A stretch of DNA of 31,906 nt, from positions 1 to 31,906 of IMG/VR virus record IMGVR_UViG_3300036770_000504. One strand, 5' to 3'. Numbering within the stretch: the stretch's first letter is position 1; each line of letters opens with the position of its first letter. The position numbers and the translations under genes were made by a program. Under the pieces are notes generated by a model. The model searched no databases. It saw nothing but the letters and a program-made list of their open reading frames with translations, and was not told the origin of the DNA. Positions 1 to 31,906 of the stretch are shown here, one piece after another. This DNA comes from a virus.

Positions 1-147
1 CATCATGAATCTTGAGGCGTACAAATGCTCTTGCTCTCCTGGCCCCATCTCATGGCGGATTTTAATGTACGGATCTACAATTACCGCTTTAACATCTTTC
101 TCCCAAACTAGGTACTCAAAAACGCTTTCAATCTGCTCAATTCTAAA
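1..147. repeat. Terminal direct repeat, left copy (matches 31760-31906)
   Basis: Positions 25-147 are identical to 31784-31906 (123 bp). Positions 1-24 match 31760-31783 except at 7, 19, 22 and 24. All four differences fall in helicase codons and leave the amino acids unchanged (Phe, Tyr, and a double change Leu TTG to CTT). The helicase frame runs through the junction, so this is contig-end overlap of a circular or permuted genome. The synonymous differences suggest that the two ends came from different strain variants. Confidence 0.9.
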
Positions 148-624
148 ATCTGGAGTTTTATCTTTCTCTGGGTAAACAAAATAAAATTTATCCTTTACCA
201 AGTCAAAAGCTGCTAGGTACTCCTCTTCGCTAACATCAAAGTTCTTGTAAGCTCTATCCGTACTTTTACCTAAAATCGTGTGAATAATATCATCAAAAAA
301 CTCATCTGGCGGATAATTCTCTGGAGAGAAAAACGCAAACTTCCATCCTTCGTTAATTGCCTTTAAAACGCAAAGAAAAATAAGAAACTGCGACTTACCT
401 TCGTTGTTGTAACCAGTCCAAAGGTTAAACTCTCCAGCCTTCCAACTCCACATCTTATTTTGTACTCCTCCGCTTGTGATGTTGTCGATATCTCTAACGT
501 ATGTCTTACTTCCAGCTTCTTTCCCTTTACGAAAGTTATTTAGCATCGAATCTCTTTGCCCGGCAAATGTCTTAATTGATGCCTCGCAAAAGTCTAAATC
601 AAAAATCTTATCTGGCCGTTTCAT
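1..624 (-). CDS. DnaB/Twinkle-like replicative helicase, N-terminal part (gene continues at 31759)
   Basis: Residues 1-208 of a 349-residue SF4 (RecA-fold) helicase. ATG lies at 624-622 and overlaps the TGA of the upstream gene as ATGA, which fixes the start. Visible motifs are Walker A GYNNEGKS (residues 71-78), SPENYP (100-105), which resembles the DnaB strand-2 motif, and Walker B VIVDP (181-185, Asp184). In this family the protein unwinds DNA as a hexamer at the phage fork. The chain is short, with no room for a large primase or DnaB N-terminal domain, so a separate primase or the host's is implied. The frame crosses position 1 and continues in frame at 31759 down to 31334. The genes just upstream (621-929 and 931-1584) are candidate loader and initiator. 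Identification as an SF4 ATPase is firm; helicase activity is inferred from family and context. Confidence 0.85.
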   Translation of the reverse strand, partial: MKRPDKIFDLDFCEASIKTFAGQRDSMLNNFRKGKEAGSKTYVRDIDNITSGGVQNKMWSWKAGEFNLWTGYNNEGKSQFLIFLCVLKAINEGWKFAFFSPENYPPDEFFDDIIHTILGKSTDRAYKNFDVSEEEYLAAFDLVKDKFYFVYPEKDKTPDFRIEQIESVFEYLVWEKDVKAVIVDPYIKIRHEMGPGEQEHLYASRFMM

Positions 625-929
625 TCAACAAAGTATTTATCAATATTATCTTTTAAGTCTTGGTAGCTACCTGATCTCTGAGCTACATCCTTAAACCATT
701 GCTTCTCAAATTGATTTCTTACCCTTATCTCATCTTGGAGTAGTAATTTAGTACCTTTTATCTCATAATCTTGCAAATTGATTAGATTGATATATTTTTT
801 TTGTAGAGCGAATAGCCTTTTAAGGTTTATCTCAATTAATGCCCAATTCTTAGTTTGCTGCGCTTGTACAATCATTGCCCAAATGTCTCTATTAAGCTCA
901 TTTAAGGCTTTCATATCTTTATTACCCAT
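621..929 (-). CDS. Small helical protein, candidate helicase loader
   Basis: A 102-residue protein I cannot assign to a named family. It is hydrophilic and predicted helical, rich in Lys, Gln, Leu and Asn, with no signal peptide, membrane segment or Cys cluster. Its ATG at 929 is one base after the stop of the DUF6291 gene, and its TGA overlaps the helicase ATG (ATGA), so the three genes should be co-translated. In many phages a small helical protein directly before the replicative helicase is the helicase loader or an accessory replication factor; that role is inferred from position only. A start at the internal Met6 is possible but would leave a longer gap upstream. Confidence 0.6.
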   Translation of the reverse strand: MGNKDMKALNELNRDIWAMIVQAQQTKNWALIEINLKRLFALQKKYINLINLQDYEIKGTKLLLQDEIRVRNQFEKQWFKDVAQRSGSYQDLKDNIDKYFVE

Positions 930-930
930 C

Positions 931-1584
931 TTACCACCAATTATCTTTTAAAGTTGATTTGTTGTACTTATTTGCATCTATTTCTGGTATTGGATTTCCT
1001 CTCTTTATCCAGTTAACAAAATGCTTTTTAGCATCCTCTTCACTTACTTTCAATTCTGCTTTTAGGAGTTGCTCTTGTCTAAATTCATTCAAGTGATTTC
1101 TTACTTGCTCAATACTTGCTTTATTCTTCATTGCAATACCTTCTAACCAGATATTACTTGTCCAGAGCTTTCTAAATATTTCGTTGTGAGTTTCCTCATT
1201 TACCTCCAAGTTTTCTACTGGCTCTCTATATATATCATTTACATTATCATTAACATTTACATTAACAGCTAGATTTGCTAGAGTTTGCTTAGCATTGCTA
1301 GGTTTTGCTAGATGATTTGTAGCATTGCTAGCTTTTGCTAGACCTCCTTTTTTACCAGCCTCTGATCTAACTTGTTTTTTATCTTCCCAAAGCTTTAAAT
1401 CTCTTTTAAGCTGGGTCTTAATTGGCAAGAAAGCCAATCGTATAAGCTTATCCTCTGTTTCTGGATTCTCATCGTTTACATAAGCATAAATATGCTTTAT
1501 CAATTTTCCAGCATCCTCATTGGATAACTCTTCAAAGACTTCTCTTTGGTCTGCATACAGTACAAATGATTTTTTCCCTTGCAT
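931..1584 (-). CDS. DUF6291-type replisome organiser-like protein
   Basis: A 217-residue protein. Residues 1-70 (starting MQGKKSFVLYADQREVFEEL, then AGKLIKHIYAYVND) match the N-terminal pattern of DUF6291 proteins, common in Bacteroidetes phages in the position of replication initiators. Residues 80-117 are a low-complexity linker with a 10-residue repeat (LAKASNATNH, LAKPSNAKQT) followed by Asn/Val repeats. Residues 125-217 are a helical C-terminal part ending in DNWW, in DnaD-like position. The frame can be extended to a TTG at 1602, but that would place the start inside the terminator stem, so ATG 1584 is preferred. The linker DNA is the putative origin, as in lambda O-type genes. It is followed by the possible loader and the helicase. 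The role as initiator is inferred from family and context. Confidence 0.75.
   Translation of the reverse strand: MQGKKSFVLYADQREVFEELSNEDAGKLIKHIYAYVNDENPETEDKLIRLAFLPIKTQLKRDLKLWEDKKQVRSEAGKKGGLAKASNATNHLAKPSNAKQTLANLAVNVNVNDNVNDIYREPVENLEVNEETHNEIFRKLWTSNIWLEGIAMKNKASIEQVRNHLNEFRQEQLLKAELKVSEEDAKKHFVNWIKRGNPIPEIDANKYNKSTLKDNWW
1228..1341. other. Putative replication origin: 10-bp-phased iterons beside an A/T-rich stretch
   Basis: The plus strand carries TTGCTAG at 1275, 1295, 1305, 1325 and 1335, with degenerate copies at 1285 (TTGCTTAG) and near 1315 (TTTGTAG). The spacing is 10 bp, one helical turn. The blocks 1291-1312 and 1321-1342 match at 21 of 22 positions. Because 10 is not a multiple of 3, the motif is read in all three codon phases, which points to selection on DNA rather than protein. 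Adjacent 1228-1266 is almost pure A/T with repeated ACATTA units and could be an unwinding element. The array lies in the linker of the DUF6291 gene, as the lambda origin lies in gene O. Function is inferred. Confidence 0.55.
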
Positions 1585-1625
1585 AAAATAAAAAAGCCCC
1601 AAACGTGTCGCAGTCGTCGGGGCTT
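1585..1625 (-). terminator. Intrinsic terminator-like hairpin just before the DUF6291 gene
   Basis: On the minus strand the stem is AAGCCCC (1625-1619) and GGGGCTT (1600-1594), with an 18-nt loop, followed by TTTTATTTTA up to the ATG at 1584. It has the shape of a rho-independent terminator, but it lies inside an operon immediately upstream of a replication gene, which suggests attenuation rather than operon end. The loop contains CTGCGAC, complementary to the loop of the hairpin at 1641-1678. Confidence 0.6.
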
Positions 1626-1640
1626 GGTTGGTTTACACCT

Positions 1641-1678
1641 ATGAAACATCCAAGGCTGCGACCTCTCAAATGTTTCAT
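1641..1678 (-). promoter_or_regulatory. Upstream leader hairpin with loop complementary to the terminator loop
   Basis: On the minus strand ATGAAACAT (1678-1670) pairs perfectly with ATGTTTCAT (1649-1641) around a 20-nt loop. The loop contains GTCGCAG (1662-1656), the exact complement of CTGCGAC (1613-1607) in the loop of the downstream terminator hairpin. A kissing-loop or a competing antiterminator pairing is possible. The region 1585-1707 contains no convincing gene. Confidence 0.5.
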
Positions 1679-3117: not shown

Positions 3118-3305
3118 TTTAGTATTTCTTTTAGTTGATTATAAATTGATTCTGCGGTTTTTCCCCAATACATCTCACATTTACCATCCTTAATCGGAGG
3201 CTCAATAAAGTAATATTGGTACTCGCTTGGCTTGGCCGTGTAGCGGTAACACGTTTCTTTCTGAGGGCAATTTGTCCCTTGGCACATCGTAATATCAGGA
3301 CTCAT
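3114..3305 (-). CDS. Cys-rich small protein, paralogue of the gene at 21420
   Basis: A 63-residue protein with Cys8, Cys13, Cys19 and Cys43 (C-x4-C-x5-C then a fourth Cys), likely one metal-binding site. After the third Cys comes YRYTAKP, then YYFIEPP and GKCEMYWG. The protein at 21420-21596 shows the same order: three Cys with identical spacing, ERYLTKP, YFEKEP, and a later C-P-M. The two therefore look like duplicates or separately acquired relatives. The ATG overlaps the Gp157 stop (ATGA). Function is unknown; a zinc-knuckle adaptor or nucleic-acid-binding role is only a guess. Confidence 0.65.
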   Translation of the reverse strand: MSPDITMCQGTNCPQKETCYRYTAKPSEYQYYFIEPPIKDGKCEMYWGKTAESIYNQLKEILK

Positions 3306-3787
3306 TTTATTTGTAGGTTAAAGTTTTCTATTAGTCTTGCTCCTATTACATTTTCTCCTCTTTTAATAGCTTCTTTAATTGCTACTTTATCAGCGGTTAC
3401 CACGTTTTTAACATTCAAGAAAGCGCCTGGCAATGCTTCTACAATATCAACCTCCACCGATTCGCTACGGCGCAAAGAGAGCTTAAATAAGGGACTTTCT
3501 ATCTTGTCTATATTACTTACCAACATTGCCTCTCTAACGGCATCCTTGAGCCTTGTAATGGCTCGATCCTTGCTTTCCTTCATTGCCTTCAACCGCTTTA
3601 TTTCCGTGTCAATTGCATCCGCATCGCTCTGGATGTTTGCAATTACCTTGGCATAGCTGCCAGCCTTTACCTGGAGTTGCTCTTGGTTAATTACCAGCAA
3701 TTGCTCCAATTCTGGAGTAAACTCTTCGGTTTCAAGTAGAGAGGCTAACTCTAGCGCCTCTCTTGTTATCTCATATAAATTTGCCAT
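3302..3787 (-). CDS. Siphovirus Gp157-family protein
   Basis: A 161-residue protein with the Gp157 family pattern: an N-terminal helical region, a central coiled coil (residues about 45-100, with DADAIDTEIKRLKAMKESKD) and a C-terminal beta part (SPLFKLSLRRSESVEV and LPGAFLNVK). In Streptococcus phages Gp157 has been linked to protection from host nucleases or resistance, but its mechanism is not settled. It follows the ERF recombinase with a TAATG overlap at 3787. That pairing with single-strand annealing proteins is typical and suggests a role in DNA recombination or protection. Confidence 0.8.
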   Translation of the reverse strand: MANLYEITREALELASLLETEEFTPELEQLLVINQEQLQVKAGSYAKVIANIQSDADAIDTEIKRLKAMKESKDRAITRLKDAVREAMLVSNIDKIESPLFKLSLRRSESVEVDIVEALPGAFLNVKNVVTADKVAIKEAIKRGENVIGARLIENFNLQIK

Positions 3788-4329
3788 TATACTAATCCGT
3801 TTAAAATTTCGTTTTGATCCTTGTTAAAATTGTATTTCGCCATAGCTTCTAAAGCTTGCTTTCTCTGTGCATCCGTGCCGTTTAAATACCGTACAATGTA
3901 AGCGAACTGCTCCTCCGTTGGAGCTACTTTTACTGGAGCCTTTGGAGTATGGTCGTTACTTGCATCTGGATCTAAATGGCTATCGTCTATTAGGAGTAGG
4001 CCTGATAAAGCATATTTACGAGCATAGCTCGAGGAGCTACCAAAGGACTGAGCTACGTCCATACCTTTGCGATTGATGTCTATGCCAGCTTGCGCCGTTA
4101 CTGCTCTACCTTCCATATCTTTCTGGATGCTTACGGTTGACTCAATAAACACAAGTCCGCCAACCTCTTTTACCTCATCCTCAATGATTAAGGTACATTC
4201 GTATTTCAATAATAAAGGCTTCAATGCCTCCAGGATATCCTCGCAAGATCTGTATTTGTACTTGCCAAAGGCATTAAACTGGTTTTTAGGAGCTTTTAAC
4301 TCCGCTTGGATTTGGATTAACTCTTTCAT
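3787..4329 (-). CDS. erf: ERF-family single-strand annealing protein
   Basis: A 180-residue protein with the hallmarks of the ERF superfamily: KNQFNAFGKYKYRSCEDILEA near residue 15-35, a beta region, and GSSSSYARKYALSGLLLIDD near residues 97-116. It would anneal complementary single strands during phage recombination and genome circularisation or repair. The C-terminal 40 residues after a Pro/Lys linker (HTPKAPVKVAPT) may mediate partner contacts. The ATG at 4329 is preceded by AAACAACACCT. It is followed by Gp157 (TAATG overlap), with RusA-like resolvase elsewhere in the same early transcription unit. Confidence 0.85.
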   Translation of the reverse strand: MKELIQIQAELKAPKNQFNAFGKYKYRSCEDILEALKPLLLKYECTLIIEDEVKEVGGLVFIESTVSIQKDMEGRAVTAQAGIDINRKGMDVAQSFGSSSSYARKYALSGLLLIDDSHLDPDASNDHTPKAPVKVAPTEEQFAYIVRYLNGTDAQRKQALEAMAKYNFNKDQNEILNGLV

Positions 4330-4992: not shown

Positions 4993-5341
4993 CGTTCAAG
5001 TTTCAGAGGTTTTAATCGAAATCAAAGAGTTGCTAATTAGCAAAAATCAAAAGTACGGTAACTCAGCTCTAGAGCCGCTTGGTGTTTTCAGTCAGTTGTC
5101 CGCAAAAGACGGACTACTCATTAGGATTGATGACAAGCTAAAGCGAATTAAAAACGGATCTTTAGATCGAGACGATGAGGATGTAATAAATGATTTAATC
5201 GGATACCTAGTTTTATTAAAAATTCATGCAAACCAGGAGAGCAATTTTGATGAGCTTGACGGCTCTCACAACTGGAAAAGCGTAAAGAATAAGCAAGAAA
5301 TGATAAGGTTATTTAAGGCCAATTTAAAGGATAGCCTATAA
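4979..5341 (+). CDS. Nmad1/MazG-like nucleotide enzyme
   Basis: A 120-residue, mostly helical protein with the pattern of the nucleotide modification associated domain 1 (DUF1599) and MazG-like all-alpha pyrophosphohydrolases: EIKELLISKNQKYGNSALEP, then GLLIRIDDKLKRIKNG, then DEDVINDLIGYLVLL. The Glu/Asp-rich helices would bind Mg and a nucleoside triphosphate. Family members hydrolyse or modify dNTPs, and in phages they may protect or adjust nucleotide pools. The ATG overlaps the upstream gene by 14 bp. The gene ends immediately before an inverted-repeat terminator. The dNTP substrate is not readable. Confidence 0.7.
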   Translation: MLEFNVQVSEVLIEIKELLISKNQKYGNSALEPLGVFSQLSAKDGLLIRIDDKLKRIKNGSLDRDDEDVINDLIGYLVLLKIHANQESNFDELDGSHNWKSVKNKQEMIRLFKANLKDSL

Positions 5342-5376
5342 ACGGTATTTTACAAAAGATGCCGTTTTTGTAAAAT
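5341..5376 (+). terminator. Inverted repeat after the plus-strand operon
   Basis: ATTTTACAAAA (5347-5357) and TTTTGTAAAAT (5366-5376) are perfect 11-bp arms around an 8-nt loop. An alternative stem, AACGG (5341-5345) with CCGTT (5362-5366), ends in T-rich sequence, so a plus-strand terminator is likely. The rest of the convergent gap to 5488 holds smaller inverted repeats: CGGAAA/TTTCCG near 5391-5403, GTTAC/GTAAC near 5420-5445, and AGGTTT (5458-5463) with AAACCT (5473-5478). It has no gene. The opposing minus-strand genes also end here. Confidence 0.5.
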
Positions 5377-5488
5377 ATCTTTAACATTATCGGAAATTTT
5401 CCGAATAACTTAGGTATCTGTTACAAAAAAATATAAAAACGTAACAATCAAACTCAGAGGTTTACAAAACGCAAACCTTTGTTAACTT

Positions 5489-6037
5489 TTAGAATAACTT
5501 TTTACTAACTCCTAACGTGTGTATTTTAGTCACAGGTTGGAACTGGTATTGGAAGAGATATTTATCGTCCACATAAGAAGCCTTTGCGCCTGGATCTAAC
5601 AGAGAGTTAATTGTTGCGCCCAAATAAAAACCTTTGCTCTTCTTTATTATAGTTTCCGTTTTTGTCTCCGTTATCGTATTAGTTACCACAGGCAATTTAT
5701 AATCGTTAATAGCGGTCATTTTAAGCACTTCACCGAGGACTTCTCCGCTTACCTTAGTACTTCCATACTCAAAAGGAAAAGTGGTCTCAAACAGGCTAAT
5801 TTTAGGCTTAAAATCGATTAGTACCGTATCCCTTAAAACTTGCGTTTTTATCTTTGTTTTAGGGATATAAACCGTATCTGAGGAGGTGATGTATAGAGTA
5901 TCCGTCAATCGCTCAATTTTTGTTTTATAGACGGTTTCAAGTTCCCTTTTTGGGAATAAAAGAAAAGCTAAAATTACTCCAGCGATAAAAGCTATAATTG
6001 CAATTTTGATGCGCTCATCGTCTAGTAACTCTTTCAT
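5489..6037 (-). CDS. Membrane-anchored protein at the end of the lysis module, spanin candidate
   Basis: A 182-residue protein with a basic and acidic N-terminus, one transmembrane helix (residues about 11-29, KIAIIAFIAGVILAFLLF) and a long, Thr/Lys-rich exported part. The residue pattern (TDTLYITSSDTVYIPKT) suggests repeated beta or coiled segments, and the end (GFYLGATINS ... LGVSKKLF) looks beta-rich. It is the last gene of the lysis transcription unit, a usual place for an inner-membrane spanin, but no lipobox partner is visible, so this is inference. The ATG overlaps the TGA of the 50-residue gene (ATGA). Confidence 0.6.
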   Translation of the reverse strand: MKELLDDERIKIAIIAFIAGVILAFLLFPKRELETVYKTKIERLTDTLYITSSDTVYIPKTKIKTQVLRDTVLIDFKPKISLFETTFPFEYGSTKVSGEVLGEVLKMTAINDYKLPVVTNTITETKTETIIKKSKGFYLGATINSLLDPGAKASYVDDKYLFQYQFQPVTKIHTLGVSKKLF

Positions 6038-6186
6038 TGCTTTTTATTTTTACCTCTAAATTGAACGTAACAAATAATCAACCGCTGATCTTGTCTTGGA
6101 AACTCGCTTACCATAACTGCATCGGATACACATCTGCCAATAAAATCGTTTTGGCTCTCTCCAGGTTTTGGTTTAGGTAAAGGCAT
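6034..6186 (-). CDS. Small conserved phage protein (50 aa)
   Basis: A short gene with ATG at 6186-6184 sharing an A with the upstream TAA (TAATG), and TGA overlapping the next ATG (ATGA). The product begins MPLPKPKPGESQNDFIGRCV and contains EFPRQDQRLIICY. This pattern (PKPGES..DFI.RC.....EFP..QR) recurs in small phage proteins and at the N-terminus of some head-maturation proteins, so it is likely genuine. Function is unknown. Confidence 0.7.
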   Translation of the reverse strand: MPLPKPKPGESQNDFIGRCVSDAVMVSEFPRQDQRLIICYVQFRGKNKKQ

Positions 6187-6407
6187 TATTCGTAGATATC
6201 TATATTTTCATCATTTAACAAAATCCGTAATTGATCTCGAGTCTGTTTTATCGCATCGTATTGTCCATCTGGTAACTCCTCAAACTTTAACTTGGCTCGC
6301 ATCCATTGGTCTAACTCCCACAAGACAGAGCGCATTTTTGAGCCATTTGTTGCGTTTGCAAACTCGTAATTATCCTCTGGTAGATTAAACTCTAGTACTG
6401 CTTTCAT
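6186..6407 (-). CDS. Small conserved phage protein (73 aa)
   Basis: A 73-residue acidic protein starting MKAVLEFNLPEDNYEFANAT and containing RSVLWELDQWMRAKLKFEEL. This layout (a beta strand, a NATNG loop, a helix with WELDQW, then an acidic tail) is seen in many small phage proteins of unknown function. The ATG overlaps the stop of the metallophosphoesterase, and the TAA overlaps the next start, so it belongs to the same transcript. No catalytic motif is visible. Confidence 0.7.
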   Translation of the reverse strand: MKAVLEFNLPEDNYEFANATNGSKMRSVLWELDQWMRAKLKFEELPDGQYDAIKQTRDQLRILLNDENIDIYE

Positions 6408-7285
6408 AACGGAAATTTACAACTGTCGATTAATAAGTCAAAACTCTGCTTTCCATCTCCTCGCTCTCTTGTAACATTTAAAGTCAATATACGGCCTCCA
6501 ACTGGTTTAATAGGCGCTGCACGTTCAACATGCCAACCAAATGCTCCATCCTGGTACTCTTCTTTATAAGATCCAGTTATTGCCAGGTGAATTTGCTTAT
6601 GTATATATTCGTAAAATCTCCTTCCTGGATTGTATTGCATTGTCTCTCTCACATCGTTACGGCTTGCGTTTTCGTGTATATGGCCCATGATAAACACATC
6701 CATGTTTTCGTACATTTCCAGCGCTCTAGTCAAATTAATCGCTCCCTTGGTTACAATACCTCCACCTCCAGAGCCGTGAAAATATTTAATATTCTTACTC
6801 AAAATAGTATTTTCAAAAAAGTGATATTTAACAAGCAACCAACCTCCATAACCTCCAGTATAAACGCTGGTTTTGTTTGTGTAGTTGAGCAAGTCGACAA
6901 AACGTTGGAGAGGATCTGTTTCTAGATTTTTTATAATTGCAGTCTCGTGATTTCCGTAACCTATAACAGTTAATAAATGCGAATACGGACTAAACCAATC
7001 TACTGCATCCTCGATTACTGCATCGATGTAATTGGCTTTATTATGCTCCGGTAAGATGTCCTTTTTGTTCCGCCGTGGATCGTATTTACCTTGCATTAAA
7101 CAAAAGAAATCCCCATTTATAAAAATAGGAATCTCATTATCTTTACAATAATCTAAATGTGACTTTAGCATTTTCCTATCGCATTTTGGGTTATCCCAAT
7201 GCAAATCCGATAGTAAGGCTAATCTATTTTCGTTTCTAGTTAAAACGATAGAATGCACATTTCTGGCAATTTTGGTTAATTCCAT
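6404..7285 (-). CDS. Calcineurin-like metallophosphoesterase
   Basis: A 293-residue protein with the full metal-binding signature of the family: DLH (Asp27-His29), GD (58-59), GNHE (111-114), His170 in FHGSGGG, and GHIH (201-204). Such enzymes cleave phosphomono- or diesters using two metal ions. Phage members resemble nucleases or phosphatases of the MPE superfamily. Its position in a lysis-end accessory block, next to a homing endonuclease, gives no direct clue to the substrate. The C-terminal 90 residues may be specific to this group. The ATG at 7285 follows ATACCTTAA. Confidence 0.85.
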   Translation of the reverse strand: MELTKIARNVHSIVLTRNENRLALLSDLHWDNPKCDRKMLKSHLDYCKDNEIPIFINGDFFCLMQGKYDPRRNKKDILPEHNKANYIDAVIEDAVDWFSPYSHLLTVIGYGNHETAIIKNLETDPLQRFVDLLNYTNKTSVYTGGYGGWLLVKYHFFENTILSKNIKYFHGSGGGGIVTKGAINLTRALEMYENMDVFIMGHIHENASRNDVRETMQYNPGRRFYEYIHKQIHLAITGSYKEEYQDGAFGWHVERAAPIKPVGGRILTLNVTRERGDGKQSFDLLIDSCKFPL

Positions 7286-7947: not shown

Positions 7948-8429
7948 TATTTTAAATCTGCATCGGATTTATATGCAATGTACTTAGTTACTCCAGAAAT
8001 TCTTTTAGCTACTAAAATTTGTTTTCTGTTTTTGTCTTTGGAATAGCTAACATGAACCCATTCCGGGTTACTATTTTTTGGAAATTCGGCAATTAATTGA
8101 TCAAAATCCAGCTTATTTTTTATGAAATCGAATACCATGCGATTAGTAACCTCGCCGTTGCTTCCATCCATGTCGATGTCAATCGCTTGACCAGTACAAT
8201 GCTGAGAAGATGAGCTGCCCTTAATAAAAGCATTTAGCTCCTTGGATCTGTATCCTGAGCTTATAAATATTGGAGTTTTAAAATGCTCTCGGATTGGCTC
8301 GAATACTTTTTCCGCTAACAACTTAAAATTCTCTAAATGCTCGGCGGTTGGCGTGTTGTCAATTCCATGACGCTTGGCCGTATCGCTTCTGGTAATTTCT
8401 GCAAGATTAAGGTTAGGACTTATCTTCAT
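7947..8429 (-). CDS. Peptidase M15-family endolysin
   Basis: A 160-residue protein with the M15 zinc-site motifs: SSSSQHCTGQAIDID (His77, Asp84) and EWVHVS (His126), plus FISSGYRSKELN near residue 56. M15 enzymes cut peptide bonds in peptidoglycan stems (carboxypeptidase or L-Ala-D-Glu type). It has no signal peptide, so export would need the holin. It overlaps the upstream holin candidate by 17 bp. It is single-domain with no separate wall-binding module, consistent with a Gram-negative host. Confidence 0.85.
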   Translation of the reverse strand: MKISPNLNLAEITRSDTAKRHGIDNTPTAEHLENFKLLAEKVFEPIREHFKTPIFISSGYRSKELNAFIKGSSSSQHCTGQAIDIDMDGSNGEVTNRMVFDFIKNKLDFDQLIAEFPKNSNPEWVHVSYSKDKNRKQILVAKRISGVTKYIAYKSDADLK

Positions 8430-8759: not shown

Positions 8760-8946
8760 TTTTGCGATGCTCAAATAAAGCTTTCTCGTTTTTAATCTTG
8801 AATACTAGCCAGACGATAGAAAGGCAAGAAATAATTACCGTTAGGAAAATATTTATGTTCATCAAATCCAGACTCTGAAACACGTTTGCAATGATTGCCG
8901 CAACTGTGGAGGGTAAGCCTATTTCGTCTTTTTGGAAAATATTCAT
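8743..8946 (-). CDS. Small single-span membrane protein, holin or antiholin candidate
   Basis: A 67-residue protein. I use the ATG at 8946 (MNIFQKDEIGLPSTVAAIIA) because the longer frame to 8973 starts with a non-ATG codon inside the promoter-like element. One strong transmembrane helix lies around residues 34-50 (IFLTVIISCLSIVWLVF), and a weaker hydrophobic stretch precedes it. The C-terminus is charged (HRKNEKGQ). It is the first gene after the terminator at 9002, with a TATTTTTG box about 25 bp upstream, so it opens the lysis unit. Confidence 0.55.
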   Translation of the reverse strand: MNIFQKDEIGLPSTVAAIIANVFQSLDLMNINIFLTVIISCLSIVWLVFKIKNEKALFEHRKNEKGQ

Positions 8947-31333: not shown

Positions 31334-31906
31334 TTAGAACGGTGATTTAGTTTCTGTTTCAAACTCAAAATTATTTGTTCCCAAATTGGGAAACTTTTCT
31401 ACTCCAGGGAATTGATGGCTTTTAACATTTGCGTTTGCAAAGTAATCGAATCCATCTTTACCAATGTAACGGTTTCGCTTTCTGTTAAAATCAATTGTAA
31501 TCTCAAAAGGTATTCCAACCAGCTTTTGTTTCTTGATTTTATCCGTCTTAATTATAACCGTTGTATCGTTCGGGTCAGTTGCTCTATTAGGTCTCCAAAC
31601 GCTTATTGTATTGTCGGTCGAATCTGCAAAGGTACCCCCCCCCTTAATTTGGTAGAGACTCGGAGGCGGATAATTTCCATCTTTCTCTTTTCTTGGTGTT
31701 GTTTGATGCATTACCAAATGATAAGAAACATTATTTTTTCTTGTAAAGTTAATCCTATCCATCATAAATCTTGAGGCATAAAGATGCTCTTGCTCTCCTG
31801 GCCCCATCTCATGGCGGATTTTAATGTACGGATCTACAATTACCGCTTTAACATCTTTCTCCCAAACTAGGTACTCAAAAACGCTTTCAATCTGCTCAAT
31901 TCTAAA
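31334..31906 (-). CDS. DnaB/Twinkle-like helicase, C-terminal part (gene begins at 624)
   Basis: Residues 160-349 of the helicase begun at 624. The end copy of the repeat covers the Walker B region again, and the frame is open to the window edge in register. New sequence includes HLVMHQTTPRKEKDGNYPPP and YQIKGGGTFADSTDNTISVW, matching C-terminal RecA-core motifs of phage helicases. A run of nine G (C9 at 31635-31643 on plus) encodes the Gly triplet. The C-terminal tail (FEFETETKSPF) is acidic and may contact partners. Confidence 0.85.
   Translation of the reverse strand, partial: FRIEQIESVFEYLVWEKDVKAVIVDPYIKIRHEMGPGEQEHLYASRFMMDRINFTRKNNVSYHLVMHQTTPRKEKDGNYPPPSLYQIKGGGTFADSTDNTISVWRPNRATDPNDTTVIIKTDKIKKQKLVGIPFEITIDFNRKRNRYIGKDGFDYFANANVKSHQFPGVEKFPNLGTNNFEFETETKSPF
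31760..31906. repeat. Terminal direct repeat, right copy (matches 1-147)
   Basis: The right copy carries A, A, A and G at positions 31766, 31778, 31781 and 31783, where the left copy has G, G, C and A. From 31784 to the end it equals 25-147. Removing one copy gives a circle of about 31,759 bp. Confidence 0.9.

Follow-up and report, generated by a model that had tools for sequence, protein, structure and literature searches.

The whole stretch of DNA analysed here, referred to below as the window, comprises the 31,906 nucleotides of IMG/VR virus record IMGVR_UViG_3300036770_000504. It encodes a protein with DUF6291 and DUF7833 domains, and the linker-coding part of this gene holds short, evenly spaced direct repeats (iterons) beside an A/T-rich ladder. 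Judging from the sequence and its relatives, array and ladder very probably form a phage replication origin inside its own initiator gene, of the type known from lambda O and SPP1 gp38. The gene has the following parts:

931 to 1584, minus strand: initiator-like gene with DUF6291 and DUF7833 domains, 217 amino acids from the ATG at 1584 (Pfam matches; start from alignment; isolate homologues annotated "replication protein").
1342 to 1380, minus strand: basic tail of the DUF6291 domain (KKQVRSEAGKKGG), a candidate iteron-reading segment (natural swaps of tail and array; end of a long helix, residues 46-89, in the AlphaFold2 model).
1268 to 1341, minus strand: iteron array, coding-strand CTAGCAA at 10-bp steps (exact, degenerate, and partial units; codon conservation).
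1226 to 1266, minus strand: A/T ladder in 6-bp steps (coding strand GTTAAT GTAAAT GTTAAT GATAAT GTAAAT GATATATATA), a putative unwinding element (low stability; codon identity 0.92).
1003 to 1167, minus strand: DUF7833 C-terminal domain (Pfam; exchanged independently of the array; the same domain stands behind unrelated N-terminal domains in loci L010 and L017-L020).

On the plus strand, TTGCTAG occurs in exact form at 1275, 1295, 1305, 1325, and 1335, accompanied by degenerate units at 1285-1292 (TTGCTTAG) and 1316-1322 (TTTGTAG) and by a partial unit at 1268-1272 (GCTAG). In coding orientation, the linker reads CTAGCAA every 10 bp, then GTTAATGTAAATGTTAATGATAATGTAAATGATATATATA. An earlier note on this DNA had described five exact and two degenerate units at 10-bp steps, with an A/T-rich block next to them, within the linker of a gene for a DUF6291 protein; the positions (1275-1335 and about 1226-1266), the unique clustering, and the Pfam match bear this out. 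The genome-wide count of TTGCTAG is ordinary (11 seen versus 6.6 expected). It is nevertheless the only 7-mer with at least four copies in any 70-bp window of the genome (maximum in 20 simulated genomes, 2-3), and the array's five identical, evenly phased 7-mers within 70 bp are unique in the genome. Of all 60-bp windows in the genome, the adjoining A/T block is among the 0.7% with the lowest predicted stability, which suits an unwinding element beside the repeats. Several direct repeats likewise lie inside the initiator coding sequence in relatives.

With units 10 bp apart, every third one is framed such that CTAGCAA would supply a TAG codon. The earlier note had the motif cycling through all codon phases, which needs correction: exact units occupy phases 0 and 1 only, and those in the third phase are degenerate because an exact CTAGCAA there would put a TAG stop in frame. 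In the clade with GATAGCAAAC units, those in the corresponding stop phase are likewise altered (AATGGCAAAC and GCATAAAACC in L021).

Relatives were collected from viral contigs, bacterial genomes, and named phages in a search seeded from the window's gene, and ladders and terminators were located by our own pattern rules. Among 200,000 protein-preserving synonymous recodings, none reached five copies of the unit (at most four). In the CTAGCAA clade (48 loci, 36 distinct), codons for the same amino acid were identical in 54% of pairs in the N-terminal domain, 91% in the array, and 92% in the ladder (array versus N-terminal domain, 0.91 versus 0.54; Mann-Whitney p = 3e-10). Serine is always AGC and two alanine positions are always GCA in the arrays of this clade, and the amino acids in the degenerate units are variable (T, K, R, or S). 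A lag test was applied to 101 distinct arrays, which represent about 30 initiator lineages; clusters in which no clear ladder was seen were excluded. Pooled self-match was 0.41 at lag 10 and 0.42 at lag 20, versus 0.31 and 0.32 under synonymous resampling; this excess was missing at neighboring lags and in the flanking N- and C-domain control regions, which were flat. Because relatives share ancestry, pooled z-scores overstate independence, and the cluster-level tests are the ones to be trusted: with one gene per N-domain cluster, 29/31 clusters exceeded their own null, and 0/500 null sets reached the mean. The window's own array gave a p value of 0.027 on the lag-10 measure. The array is selected as DNA and is not a by-product of the protein; the recoding, codon-identity, and lag tests thus confirm what the earlier note had surmised. 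The alignment that it had suggested as a check gave the same answer, as relatives keep the DNA period (within a clade, also the letters) and the linker protein varies, not the reverse.

A common layout, in which the N-terminal domain is followed by iterons, an A/T block, the C-terminal domain, and then helicase genes, is found in over 100 relatives and supports the likeness to lambda O and its origin drawn earlier. Across about 30 lineages (101 distinct arrays), motifs differ widely; the 10-bp period, the position, and the 6-bp A/T ladder recur. Clade units read CTAGCAA, TTAGCAA, GATAGCAAAC, GAAGCAAAC, AAAGCAAA, AACCCAAA, TTCAACAAA, AACGAGCGTTAACG, or ATCGCAAAAC, some arrays having an inverted unit in the middle, and nearly all precede a GNWANT-type ladder encoding VN, DN, VS, DS, VT, or DT pairs. 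The ladders of 129 relatives have a median rank within the 0.9% least stable DNA of their locus. Unrelated N-terminal domains joined to the window's DUF7833 domain, with their own arrays in the linker, were observed in L010, L015 (11-bp array), and L017-L020. The array of L010 has an 11-bp period (lags 11 and 22, 0/500), and the phased linker array of L017, whose N-terminal domain is Lin1244_N, is weak.

Across 107 genes, array similarity tracks the tail of the DUF6291 domain (residues 69-83; rho = 0.56, partial 0.53; core, 0.29, partial 0.16). The protein cores of L041 and L039 are 94% identical, and their tails and arrays are unrelated; L101 and L011 likewise combine a like core with an unrelated tail and array. 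The same core with a different tail and array was seen in L100, L101, L103, L104, and L111 versus the W clade, and in L041 versus L028/L039; these pairs are candidate natural specificity swaps. A new point is that exchanges appear to carry tail and array along together and to leave the DUF6291 core in place. Linkage alone could contribute to the tail-array correlation, because the tail is coded beside the array; a nearly unchanged core does coexist with different arrays. We treat the tail as array-reading segment as a lead, not a demonstration. As a separate observation, the DUF6291 genes of L226 (about 5100-5600) and L232 (minus strand, about 6100-6700) contain a TGA in frame at a site that is Gly or Trp in relatives (GKK-TGA-GLAKAS); in these phages, TGA is probably translated as an amino acid.

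Two arrays lie outside any open reading frame (ORF). In L180, one ORF ends at 3148 and the next begins at 4189, and the gap holds four perfect units in a row; in L212, the gap runs from an ORF end at 8050 to an ORF start at 8820 and holds about 15 units whose spacing alternates between 10 and 9 bp. The units of both are perfect in all phases, with a 6-bp ladder after each array. Such intergenic arrays, perfect and free of the stop limit, argue that the array is a DNA site. The L180 record, a fragment, contains no DUF6291 match; its tandem array of CTAGCAAACT with an AGTAAT/GGTTAT ladder spans 3540-3645. The CTAGCAA-like array and ladder of L212 (8200-8390; record G002, about 21.45 kb) precede a terminase-like gene and are a candidate stand-alone origin. 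DUF6291 ORFs lie about 4 kb from this array in the same record and contain no array themselves; the DUF6291 protein of L212 may use the intergenic one. Most CTAGCAA-pair matches outside DUF6291 genes look like chance pairs and were set aside.

The protein matches DUF6291 (PF19808) with an E value of 5.5e-25 and 87.8 bits (cut-off, 27.2) and DUF7833 with an E value of 1.4e-10, and alignment favors the ATG at 1584 over the TTG at 1602 as start. The AlphaFold2 model of the N-terminal domain is good (predicted local distance difference test [pLDDT], 90.6) and shows three helices, the last one extending through the tail; the full-length model is poor (pLDDT, 62), and the linker (residues 87-128) is predicted to be disordered and is of low complexity. 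The DUF6291 core is thus predicted to be all-helical and may not be of the winged-helix type that characterizes the Rep family of iteron plasmids. A PDB sequence search found nothing, and a PDB structure search with the good N-domain model gave no convincing match, although such a negative does not prove absence. Most of the better structural matches among viral models bore the name DUF6291, and two were called DnaD domain protein and replisome organizer. DUF6291 was not found by name in the open-access literature searched, nor was a paper found there that joins a Flavobacterium phage with an origin of replication, a replication protein, and repeats.

The gene is flanked by an HTH_39 gene and a small ORF, the latter followed by a DnaB/primase-helicase-like gene. 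Its surroundings are as follows:

1594 to 1676, minus strand: leader, a candidate regulatory RNA (5' hairpin at 1642-1676; terminator-like hairpin ending 11 nucleotides before the ATG).
621 to 929, minus strand: ORF of 102 amino acids between initiator and helicase, without family match.
1 to 624, minus strand: 5' part of the DnaB/primase-helicase-like gene (PHROG 239/19/5482 matches), continuing at 31334-31906 across the contig ends.
31334 to 31906, minus strand: 3' part of the same gene (open frame across the join; end overlap).

Helicase or helicase-loader-type genes stand beside the DUF6291 gene in the window and in isolates. Isolates with such a module include Flavobacterium 11b and elemo, Cellulophaga phi19:3, and Olleya Harreka. 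Neighbors of the initiator gene in relatives include a DnaB helicase (Vibrio 1.240), a primase/helicase (elemo), a primase (tooticki), and a DnaC-like COG1484 protein (phi19:3), with the recombination genes NinB/NinG nearby in D478; some isolate homologues of the initiator-like gene are annotated "replication protein." The 102-residue ORF occupies the position of a helicase loader. The two ends of the window (1-147 and 31760-31906) share 147 bp at 97% identity, an overlap that falls within the helicase gene, whose frame stays open across the join. On these grounds, the window, though listed as a plain contig, probably represents an entire genome of about 31.8 kb in circularly permuted form.

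Upstream of the initiator, the loop of the leader's 5' hairpin (GTCGCAG, 1656-1662) is complementary to the loop of the terminator-like hairpin (1607-1613). Many relatives have a terminator-like hairpin ending 7-25 nucleotides before the initiator ATG, its loop complementary over 6-9 nucleotides to a 5' segment about 50 nucleotides earlier, often in a hairpin loop; 28/33 distinct leaders reached p < 0.05 against shuffles. The leader was observed upstream of the initiator in L002, L004, L011, L012, L016, L017, L020, L023, L024, L026, L028, L029, L031, L066, L095, L098, L116, L118, L119, L124, L127, L128, L136, L138, L142, and L145. Loops are hypervariable yet fully compensated, even in near-identical leaders (GTGGTAG in L011, GTGGAAG in L012). 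A descriptor scan over 3.9 Mb of sequence (counting both strands) retrieved 49 sites, versus 11 in total in shuffled sequence; 28 of the 49 lie directly before DUF6291-like genes and two before Lin1244-type initiators. Promoter-like TAnnTTTG sites occur about 100-120 nucleotides upstream in most relatives, not in the window. Rfam gave no match at threshold for the window or relatives, the leader having sub-threshold matches only. The leader is a candidate new regulatory RNA, and analogy with phage P4 and plasmid RNAs suggests a role in attenuation, copy control, or immunity.

We favor the in-gene origin because of the replication-type neighbors, the "replication protein" annotations, and an arrangement like that of ori-lambda in gene O and oriL in SPP1 gene 38. 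In such a mechanism, the DUF6291 N-terminal domain, probably via its basic tail, would bind the array units, whose spacing of one helical turn would set the bound molecules on one face of the DNA. The bound complex could then open the A/T ladder, and the C-terminal domain, with neighboring proteins, would bring in the DnaB-like helicase encoded just downstream, so that replication would start at this site.

The array might instead be an operator at which the protein represses its own gene or operon. An autoregulatory site, too, would appear as a clade-specific array kept at the DNA level, and plasmid Rep proteins often both initiate replication and autoregulate. However, the array is located over 240 bp into the coding sequence, beyond the part for the binding domain and not at a promoter; it nearly always precedes an easily melted ladder; and control upstream seemingly belongs to another element, the leader. 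We therefore consider an operator that is not a replication start unlikely. Still less likely is a recombination joint, in which conserved linker DNA aids the swapping of N- and C-terminal domains among phages. Swaps do fall exactly here, with W-like C-terminal domains behind unrelated N-terminal domains and N-terminal domains with unrelated C-terminal domains, but the motifs differ between exchange partners and so offer no homology for recombination, and the 10-bp spacing, the clade-specific motifs, and the stop-phase degeneracy would be left unexplained. The disorder and low complexity of the linker would suit a protein-level repeat expanded by slippage with no role for the DNA; this explanation is contradicted by synonymous conservation and the synonymous-resampling tests, by a period not divisible by 3, and by the intergenic arrays, and we rejected it as highly improbable.

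Several points weigh against the in-gene origin. The genome contains DNA of still lower stability than the ladder, and a clear ladder is absent from some distant Clostridia-type members. Single arrays reach p < 0.05 at lag 10 in 61/101 cases, and about 40% do not. Relatives are not independent samples, so that cluster-level tests lessen, and do not remove, the effect of kinship, and the lineage count is limited to the reach of a search seeded from the window's gene. No match in the structure searches ties DUF6291 to a known initiator. GC skew, proposed in the earlier note as a check, was computed and is uninformative: it is monotone and cannot place an origin, because nearly all genes of the window lie on one strand.

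More tentatively, and with the odds somewhat against it, these loci may represent a separate class of phage initiator-origin module. A common all-helical DUF6291 core would carry a short, exchangeable tail able to recognize the array that is coded immediately behind it; tail and array would move as one cassette, and one recombination could change origin specificity. The gene would also be gated by a leader RNA with two kissing loops, whose diversification with full compensation suggests self-specific copy control or superinfection immunity.

These results assign a likely function, that of replication initiator, to a phage family that is widespread but has had no described role. They also provide a precise putative origin location for DUF6291 phages and a rule for locating the origins of Bacteroidetes phages directly from their sequence. 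Given the natural swaps of tail and array and the constraint from stop codons, the specificity between protein and DNA can be tested directly.

Among known systems, lambda has its replication partner genes downstream (O-P), as does the window. Ori-lambda, like the origins of Stx phages, lies in the middle of initiator gene O, with iterons flanked by an A/T-rich region (PMC7466680), which is the arrangement of the window. In contrast to the four lambda iterons of about 19 bp with imperfect inverted repeats, the window combines about seven short units spaced 10 bp apart with an A/T ladder of 6-bp steps, and its N-terminal domain family is unrelated. Bacillus phage SPP1 has direct repeats and an A/T unwinding element inside gene 38 (oriL), a helicase loader (gp39), a DnaB-type helicase (gp40), and a second origin (oriR) elsewhere (PMC6316719). 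The intergenic array of L212 may resemble this second origin; the window has no second array, and no family match was found between DUF6291 and gp38. Iteron plasmids (RK2, F, and R6K) share short, phased direct repeats by an A/T-rich unwinding region with its own repeats, and differ in that the DUF6291 model consists of three helices and the window-type array is usually coding. Finally, the DnaA-trio of bacterial oriC is also a short-period, A/T-rich, stepwise element beside initiator boxes. The likeness is one of resemblance only, as the DnaA-trio advances in steps of 3 nucleotides (PMC10797057), whereas the ladder of the window advances in steps of 6 (GNWANT).
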